The notes under the pieces: generated by a model
Seen by the model: the letters and a program-made list of their open reading frames with translations, nothing else
Database searches by the model: none
Told to the model about the DNA's origin: nothing
Source of the DNA: Gammaproteobacteria bacterium
GTDB taxonomy: Bacteria > Pseudomonadota > Gammaproteobacteria > Xanthomonadales > SZUA-36
Assembly (NCBI GenBank): GCA_021772915.1
Contig: JAJFLB010000026.1
Span: forward strand, 1-64,000
Length of the DNA: 64,000 nt
Direction of reading: 5' to 3'
Shown: piece after piece, positions 26,221-27,552 of the stretch
Numbering within the stretch: the first letter of the stretch is position 1
Layout: each line of letters begins with the position of its first letter
Translations under genes and position numbers: made by a program

Positions 26221-26298
26221 CGTAGGACTGACGACATCGTCGTCGGGAATCGGGTTTTGCGACAACCGTTCCCGACCAGCAAGCGGGTCGGTCCTACG
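26221..26298. repeat. Inverted pair of REP-like units (BIME-like)
   Basis: Two 28-29 nt units face each other: 26222-26249 on + and 26269-26297 on -. Each begins GTAGGACYGAC, has a short hairpin and ends GTCGGGAA. The outer ends pair as a 12-bp inverted repeat with one mismatch. The same unit recurs at 43033-43061 and 43856-43884. The layout is that of bacterial REP/BIME elements. The remaining bases between 26117 and 26220 show nothing else. Confidence 0.75.
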
Positions 26299-26336: not shown

Positions 26337-26430
26337 AACAAAAAACAGGCGGCCCGAAGGCCGCCTGTGTAACCCCGTACGCAATTAACCCTGCGTCACA
26401 GAAGAAGGGGGGGACTGTGCTAGGGTTACA
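26337..26430 (-). ncRNA. Candidate small RNA with C-rich hairpin loop
   Basis: Read on the - strand from about 26430. A first hairpin pairs UAACCCU with AGGGUUA and CACAG with CUGUG around a 13-nt loop, UCCCCCCCUUCUU. A second 10-bp hairpin with a UUCG loop and a U-tract is the terminator (26345-26368). A promoter stands at the right place upstream (26437-26464). The 5' UGUAACCC can instead pair with GGGUUACA just before the terminator, so two folds compete. There is no ORF. It lies 93 bases downstream of the ferredoxin-NADP reductase gene on the same strand and could also be part of its 3' UTR. The family is not one I recognise. Confidence 0.55.
26338..26368 (-). terminator. Strong intrinsic terminator with UUCG loop
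   Basis: ACAGGCGGCC (26345-26354) pairs perfectly with GGCCGCCTGT (26359-26368). On the - strand the loop is UUCG and the stem runs into UUUUUGUU. It ends the candidate small RNA and any read-through from the reductase gene. Confidence 0.9.
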
Positions 26431-26436
26431 GTGCTT

Positions 26437-26464
26437 AGGATAAGGGAAAAACGATTTTTTTCAA
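26437..26464 (-). promoter_or_regulatory. Promoter of the candidate small RNA
   Basis: On the - strand, TTGAAA (26464-26459) and TATCCT (26442-26437) are 16 bases apart, 5 and 4 matches to the sigma70 hexamers. It lies 60 bases beyond the reductase stop codon, where an mRNA promoter would have no gene to serve. Confidence 0.55.
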
Positions 26465-26523: not shown

Positions 26524-27552
26524 TTAACTTTTTTTAATACCCAGTCGTTGCTGCATGATTGGACTGGTGGTGGTGTATTGCAAAAATACTTTCTTGTCAG
26601 GATTAAGGTGTTTTTGCACCCCAAATGCTGCCAGTGCGGCTTCGTGAAAACCGCTTAATATGAGTTTTTTCTTCCCCGGGTAGGTGTTGATATCACCGAC
26701 CGCAAATATGCCGGGCTCATCGGTCTGAAATTGCTCTGTATCAACCCGAATCTGGCGTTTCTCTATTTCAAGACCCCAGTCGGCAAGTGGTCCCAAGTTG
26801 GGTGACAGTCCCCAAAACACATAAACCTGCTGTGCATCGATTTCACTTAGGTCACCATTGGCATCCGCTACGGCCAGACCACGAAACCTGCCATCGTCCG
26901 ACAATACTTCACGCACCATGCCGTGAAATTCACGCAGTGCACCGGATTTTACCAATTGCTTCATTTTCTTGACCGAAGCTGGTTGAGCACGGTAGTCGAC
27001 CCGACGGTGAATCAGCACCAAACTGTTAACTTTATCGTGTAGCTCCAGTGTCCAGTCCAATGCTGAATCACCACCACCCAGAATAATAATGTCCTTGCCG
27101 GTCACTTCCTCCGGCCGGGTAATGCGGTAGTGTATGTTCTTGTCAACAAAGTCCGCCGCTCCGGGGGCACGCAAACTGCGTGGCTCGAATGCACCGAGCC
27201 CGGCAGCGATAATCACGGTTGCGGTGTCGAACTTGACGCCGGCGGAAGTCGTAAGTGCAAAACGGCCATCGGCCTTACGCTCTAGTTGCGTAACGGACTG
27301 GCCCAGGTGAAACTGGGGTTCAAATGGTTTTACCTGCTCCATCAGACGGTCAACAAGCTCCTGCGCGCCGATTACGGGATAGGCGGGAATGTCGTAAATT
27401 GGCTTTTCCGGATACAGCTCTCCGCATTGGCCACCCACATGGGCAAGAGAGTCCACGACATGTGCGCGGATATCCAGCAGACCAAGTTCAAAAATCTGGA
27501 ATAAACCGGACGGGCCGGCACCAATAATGACTACATCTGTGCTGATGGACAT
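26524..27552 (-). CDS. Ferredoxin/flavodoxin-NADP+ reductase, thioredoxin-reductase-like type
   Basis: A 342-residue flavoprotein. FAD-binding GAGPSGLFQIFELG lies at the N-terminus, followed by GGQCGELYPEKPIYDIPAYP, which lacks the redox-active CxxC of thioredoxin reductases. The NADP-binding motif is GGGDSALDW and the C-terminal FAD motif is FAVGDINTYPGKKKLI. This set is diagnostic of type-2 ferredoxin-NADP reductases. It would pass electrons between NADPH and ferredoxin or flavodoxin. Divergent from ung. Confidence 0.92.
   Translation of the reverse strand: MSISTDVVIIGAGPSGLFQIFELGLLDIRAHVVDSLAHVGGQCGELYPEKPIYDIPAYPVIGAQELVDRLMEQVKPFEPQFHLGQSVTQLERKADGRFALTTSAGVKFDTATVIIAAGLGAFEPRSLRAPGAADFVDKNIHYRITRPEEVTGKDIIILGGGDSALDWTLELHDKVNSLVLIHRRVDYRAQPASVKKMKQLVKSGALREFHGMVREVLSDDGRFRGLAVADANGDLSEIDAQQVYVFWGLSPNLGPLADWGLEIEKRQIRVDTEQFQTDEPGIFAVGDINTYPGKKKLILSGFHEAALAAFGVQKHLNPDKKVFLQYTTTSPIMQQRLGIKKS

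Follow-up and report, generated by a model that had tools for sequence, protein, structure and literature searches.

Downstream of a flavin reductase gene, on the minus strand of the window (the whole stretch of DNA that was analysed, 64,000 nucleotides), lies what is most likely a member of a previously uncatalogued small RNA family that is supported by covariation and kept by many related bacteria. The predicted RNA is ~92 nt long (26339..26430, minus strand, with its start near 26430), an assignment that draws on the position of its promoter, the z-score of its fold and its homologues. Judged by folding and alignment, the body of the RNA is a closed three-way junction and not a row of hairpins, and a run of C residues in one hairpin loop is its one constant unpaired element as predicted. 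We put the probability at roughly 60% that this is a free-standing, trans-acting sRNA with its own promoter, whose loop of five to eight C residues would pair with G-rich mRNA starts in the manner of sX13 from Xanthomonas.

A sequence-only reading had singled out a promoter, a C-rich hairpin and a terminator on the minus strand, and all three are present. The −35 box, TTGAAA (26459..26464), and the −10 box, TATCCT (26437..26442), both read in the sequence and recovered by the promoter scan, are separated by a 16-nt spacer, and six more bases lie between TATCCT and the predicted start of the RNA. There follow, on the same strand, the 5′ arm of the basal stem (GUAACCCU; 26422..26429, from the fold and the alignments); hairpin 1 (26397..26419), in which CACAG and CUGUG enclose the 13-nt C-rich loop UCCCCCCCUUCUU with its run of seven Cs (26407..26413), the presumed binding element; hairpin 2 (ACGCAG/UUGCGU; 26379..26396), drawn from the fold and a nine-sequence alignment; and the 3′ arm of the basal stem (GGGGUUAC; 26369..26376). 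An intrinsic terminator of 10 bp with a UUCG loop (26345..26368), found by the terminator scan and in the alignment, comes next, and directly 3′ of it is a U6 tract (26339..26344). The upstream neighbour, also on the minus strand and syntenic with the RNA, is the flavin reductase gene, which encodes a TrxB-like FAD/NAD(P) oxidoreductase (26524..27552) recognized by Pyr_redox_2; among the NCBIfam matches listed for it, all 25 are below the cut-off.

Taken alone, the promoter scan is at chance level, with 5 promoters found in the region against a shuffle mean of 4.1 (sd 1.9), and terminators are weakly in excess (8 in the region versus 5.5 expected, sd 2.2); it is because the locus is conserved that we judge the small RNA gene to be real. 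The pattern of CACAG, a C-run and CUGUG has one exact match in the window's whole genome. The gene next downstream of the RNA in the window is on the opposite strand, so cis-regulation of that gene is unlikely, and a small ATG-started reading frame inside the RNA is rejected because no ATG is present. Just downstream of the RNA, at 26221-26298, is an imperfect, REP-like inverted repeat (CGTAGGACTGAC / GTCGGTCCTACG); GTCNGTCCTACG, with at most one mismatch allowed, has three copies in the window where 0.57 are expected, a number matched by 2 of 100 shuffles.

The 93-nt sequence folds with an energy of −43.9 kcal/mol (z −4.47), and none of 200 shuffles is as stable; once the terminator is removed, the excess shrinks to z −2.03, with 7 of 200 shuffles equally stable. 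Its minimum-energy fold is a closed three-way junction formed by the basal stem, which pairs UGUAACCC with GGGUUACA, the C-loop hairpin and hairpin 2, with the terminator directly after. The same structure is recovered by RNAalifold, unaided, from nine same-genus sequences; the junction forms in all eight loci that were folded singly (seven distinct sequences, z −4.4 to −6.4), and in stretches from other genera that were folded with their flanks it is the best fold in eight of nine, L063 being the exception. In four loci from several genera (L055, L058, L062 and L063), there is no terminator hairpin directly after the junction; by eye, these have a GC hairpin with a T-run ~25-45 nt further on.

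It had also been suggested that the RNA could switch between two folds. In such a switch, the 5′ UGUAACCC would pair alternately within hairpin 2 and within the basal stem. We regard such a two-state switch as highly improbable. The alternative pairing (UAACCCU/AGGGUUA) spans 7 bp in the window, but of the 23 other homologues the 14 that were tested reach no more than 3-6 bp, and the centroid in the window is the junction fold, with an ensemble frequency of 0.34. Hence the two pairings proposed for UGUAACCC have fared differently: the one with GGGUUACA is conserved and the one with AGGGUUA is not.

The sequence-only reading had named paired substitutions in relatives as a test of its proposal, and these are found in alignments of both nine and 18 sequences. 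Across the nine same-genus sequences, 98.1% of cells pair and two-sided changes occur at eight pairs, a number that none of 500 shuffles reaches and against which the slid controls give at most one pair. With 18 sequences, for which only the basal stem and the C-hairpin were counted and hairpin 2 was excluded, 99.1% of cells pair; compensatory cells number 29, every one of them in the basal stem (cells here count sequences, not independent events), compared with at most six in the slid controls and a cell count reached by none of 500 shuffles. Two-sided changes fall at six of the eight basal pairs in this set, a pair count that 2 of 500 shuffles reach. Five sequence versions of the basal stem occur, all of them self-complementary (GUAGCCUC/GAGGCUAC, GUGACCCAC/GUGGGUCAC and GCGGUUCAUC/GAUGAACCGC are examples); when one representative is taken per version, each makes 8 of 8 pairs with itself and 2-7 of 8 with the other versions.

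The remaining elements vary to different degrees. Hairpin 1 is without covariation support because its stem hardly varies: its five pairs are invariant among the nine same-genus sequences, and the CACAG/CUGUG stem is identical in 23 of the 24 homologues, L052 having CGCAG/CUGUG. For hairpin 2, 92.5% of cells are paired in the nine sequences, with two-sided changes at two pairs, and between genera its sequence, length and register differ. In the terminator of the same nine sequences, every cell is paired (100%) and four pairs show two-sided changes. The homologues retain the promoter ahead of the basal stem: 23 of 24 have a TATNNT −10 element (TACCAT in L067), and the best-scoring match places a TTG 16 nt upstream of the −10 in 19 of the 24, the window's own included, with four more recognized by eye; L009 has no TTG there. 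These comparisons support the earlier proposal of a candidate small RNA gene equipped with a promoter and a terminator of its own.

When two model searches are combined, 24 of the 39 genomes searched from the window's family have the RNA, and these fall in nine of the 14 genera. Family members were located via the upstream reductase protein, and the second model (R2) added further ones. A DNA search of 101 genomes (the window's own and 100 relatives) gave matches in 17, of which nine, the own genome included, are real homologues (L001-L009); the other eight (L010-L017) were discarded, their similarity being confined to the GC-rich terminator. Divergent homologues missed by the DNA search were found by reading 3′ of the reductase stop codon in the 39 family genomes. 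The first model (R1), applied to 299 genomes of the order, gave ten family members and one terminator-only match, and R2, applied to 369 genomes of the class, had the own genome as its sole match; both searches used strict filters, by which weak matches can be lost. The model match L039 (G092) was discarded as similarity to the GC-rich terminator only. A contig pattern scan yielded 11 matches, three of which (L021, L024 and L029) were discarded as chance matches that by eye are without the junction context; two R2 matches were discarded as well, L090 and L089, the latter being antisense to the copy in G023. Counted among the 24 are L067, which was omitted from the alignments since it was misaligned by one base, and L077, L079 and L083-L085, which were found later and lie outside the alignment.

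The searches gave no match in five genera of the family (g3, g9, g11, g13 and g14), nor in G001, G014, G024 and G016, whose genera otherwise carry the RNA; many of the 39 family genomes are incomplete. In G001, which belongs to the window's genus, the reductase gene is present (L042), but the RNA is missing from the stretch after it, and the model search finds none elsewhere.

In 22 of the 24 genomes, the RNA lies on the same strand as the same flavin reductase gene and within ~170 nt downstream of it. This is the arrangement to be expected if the element were merely the reductase gene's 3′ UTR and terminator, with no independent function, yet we think this very unlikely. The G012 copy is on the other strand, ~135 nt off, in a contig with a fragment of the reductase gene, and the G026 copy is ~1.4 kb downstream of the gene; the RNA was not found in genomes of g3, g11, g13 and g14, all of which retain the reductase gene. 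Furthermore, the retention of a promoter in front of the stem is not what a 3′ UTR would predict, and a constant hairpin of CACAG, C7 and CUGUG would be needless for a terminator.

In every one of the 24 homologues, the loop of hairpin 1 has 5-8 consecutive Cs. The flanks of this run vary: the window's genus has UUCUU, several genera have AAUUUU-like sequence, and g8 has UUUU, with GUU ahead of the Cs. That the C-run is kept in 24 of 24 while the flanks change fits the binding of G-runs. In the mechanism we propose, an RNA of ~92 nt would be made from its own sigma-70-type promoter and would begin at the basal stem, with the junction presenting the loop rigidly. Short stretches of C:G pairing between the loop and G-runs located in or close to ribosome-binding sites would lower the translation of several mRNAs, the effect that the 4C and 5C loops of sX13 have. 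Hfq may be dispensable, because apart from the U-tail the RNA has no long A/U-rich single-stranded stretch. Binding of the C-loop to G-rich ribosome sites, as proposed from the sequence at the outset, is plausible given the sX13 precedent, but we infer the mechanism only, because the target searches gave no conserved target.

Specifically, the pattern AAGAAGGGG-N2-14-ATG is not enriched in the 24 genomes with the RNA (49 versus 72 reversed-pattern controls) or in the 15 genomes without it (32 versus 37 reversed controls). For GGGGGG-N3-9-ATG there is enrichment both in genomes with the RNA (1264 versus 733, 1.72x) and, more strongly, in genomes without it (998 versus 438, 2.28x). Among the G6 starts read, which come from partial lists, no gene is shared between any of G000, G013 and G020: the window's genome (G000) contributed 91 distinct starts from 100 of 101 places, 12 of which precede plausible genes of at least 70 aa; G013 contributed 50 from 49 stretches, eight preceding plausible genes (one gene counted with two starts); and G020 contributed 44 from 43 stretches, with at least one listed place left out, three of them preceding plausible genes. 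The hfq gene, found in 33 of the 39 family genomes, has no G4 near its start in any of the 26 loci parsed (30 read), and of 30 reductase loci, 14 were parsed, two of which carry a G4 no more than 45 nt before the start of the gene, one of these at the ribosome site. A G7 at hflC in the window's genome is not kept, as 19 relatives have no run of six there; two of the 19 have a G4 at the ribosome site. A LuxR-type response regulator in the window's genome (L192 1489-1513) has AAAGGGGGGAATC directly before its ATG and is a possible target.

It is worth considering two other ways in which the C-run might be used. The RNA could be a protein-binding decoy, in which the exposed C-run titrates a C-preferring protein with no base pairing; Rho is the classic poly-C binder. 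The C-run alone is constant in the loop, with flanks that differ between genera, which fits a protein footprint; likewise, the closed scaffold exposes one short motif, and no conserved G-rich target was found in the searches. CsrA sponges are decoys with several sites, however, whereas the RNA described here has a single one, and the length of its C-run drifts from 5 to 8. CsrA/RsmA sponge RNAs carry several GGA motifs; there is no GGA in the 93-nt window sequence, and a CsrA/RsmA sponge is therefore rejected. Also against a decoy, sX13 is reported to act via complementarity between its C-loops and G motifs (PMC3771888), and we consider the decoy reading unlikely. Alternatively, the RNA could be a sponge or antagonist whose C-loop kisses the G-rich loop of one structured RNA, which seems to us quite unlikely. 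The constant stem that closes the hairpin loop would suit a kissing complex, and no shared mRNA target was seen among the G6 starts read in three genomes, but the G-rich partner RNA is hypothetical. We favor the reading in which the C-loop pairs with several mRNAs.

The expectation that the RNA belongs to no known family is borne out by Rfam 15, which gives no match at the gathering threshold for the window or for ten loci of other genera. With relaxed settings, a 231-base stretch of the window has 14 weak matches, all with E ≥0.11, the best by bits being Xoo2 (19.2 bits versus a threshold of 45, E 0.11), and L058 has no match up to E 5. No description of the RNA appeared among the entries listed in searches of the open-access literature.

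It is informative to examine the window RNA in light of a separate RNA that follows polA in the same genome (L125, G000:C51) and has a 4C hairpin, a 5C hairpin and a terminator; the window RNA is a second, different C-loop RNA in its genome. In the 420 nt read after the polA stop (307 in one locus), C-loop RNAs occur in 10 of 30 loci, namely eight of genus g1, G017 and G028. Single C4 hairpins at polA in G011, G013 and G015, which look coding, and in G036 were not counted. The polA RNAs have no Rfam 15 match (nine loci), and their position and architecture suggest that they are sX13-like. The window-type RNA occurs without a polA C-loop RNA in those 420 nt in G013 (g5), G015 and G025 (g7), and G020 (g12). 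In G028 and G017 (L148 and L144), where the window-type RNA was not found, the polA loops (GAGUCCCCCCCUUUU and CAGUCCCCCCUUUA, respectively) are close to the loop of the window RNA and sit on a different scaffold.

These observations add a covariation-supported sRNA family that is absent from Rfam 15. As this family occurs with a polA sX13-like RNA in one genus and with none seen there in others, they also offer a natural comparison for the replacement of C-loop regulators. We offer only tentatively, and as a doubtful generalization, the idea of a single-loop sRNA class, in which a covarying junction would present one C-run of drifting length as a general reader of G-runs, either accompanying or replacing the sX13-type RNA at polA; different scaffolds would then display the same C-loop in related lineages.

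Among known RNAs with C-rich loops, the 6C or B11 sRNA of Actinobacteria carries about six C in the loop of each of its two hairpins, and these C-rich loops are said to bind mRNAs; the window RNA has one such loop, and there is no Rfam match at gathering. RepG of Helicobacter pylori and HPnc5490 are the same RNA. RepG is reported to target an mRNA through a variable G-repeat in its leader (PMC8295292), and HPnc5490, with UCCCCCU in its loop, to act on TlpB (PMC3771888). Targeting of a G-repeat is shared with the mode proposed here, although the bacterium is distant. The alpha-r7 sRNAs and, in S. aureus, RNAIII and other RNAs with UCCC loops likewise have C-rich apical loops, a likeness by description (PMC3771888). 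The closest comparison is with sX13, which is described as highly structured, with apical loops of 4C, 4C and 5C, as repressing mRNAs through its 4C/5C loops at 4G motifs near the start codon, as having targets that include hfq and pilH with G-rich motifs near their starts, and as acting with Hfq dispensable (PMC3771888). The two RNAs are alike in being structured and in having a C-rich apical loop. However, sX13 lies at polA and the window RNA after the reductase gene, and sX13 combines an unstructured 5′ region with three separate stem-loops, whereas the window RNA has one C5-C8 loop on a closed junction. Identity with sX13 is rejected on this difference of locus and architecture, an sX13-like RNA being found separately after polA in the same genome. 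By placing one C-run on a closed junction, the window RNA would reduce the pairing of C-loops with G-runs, as reported for sX13 and RepG, to a single element.
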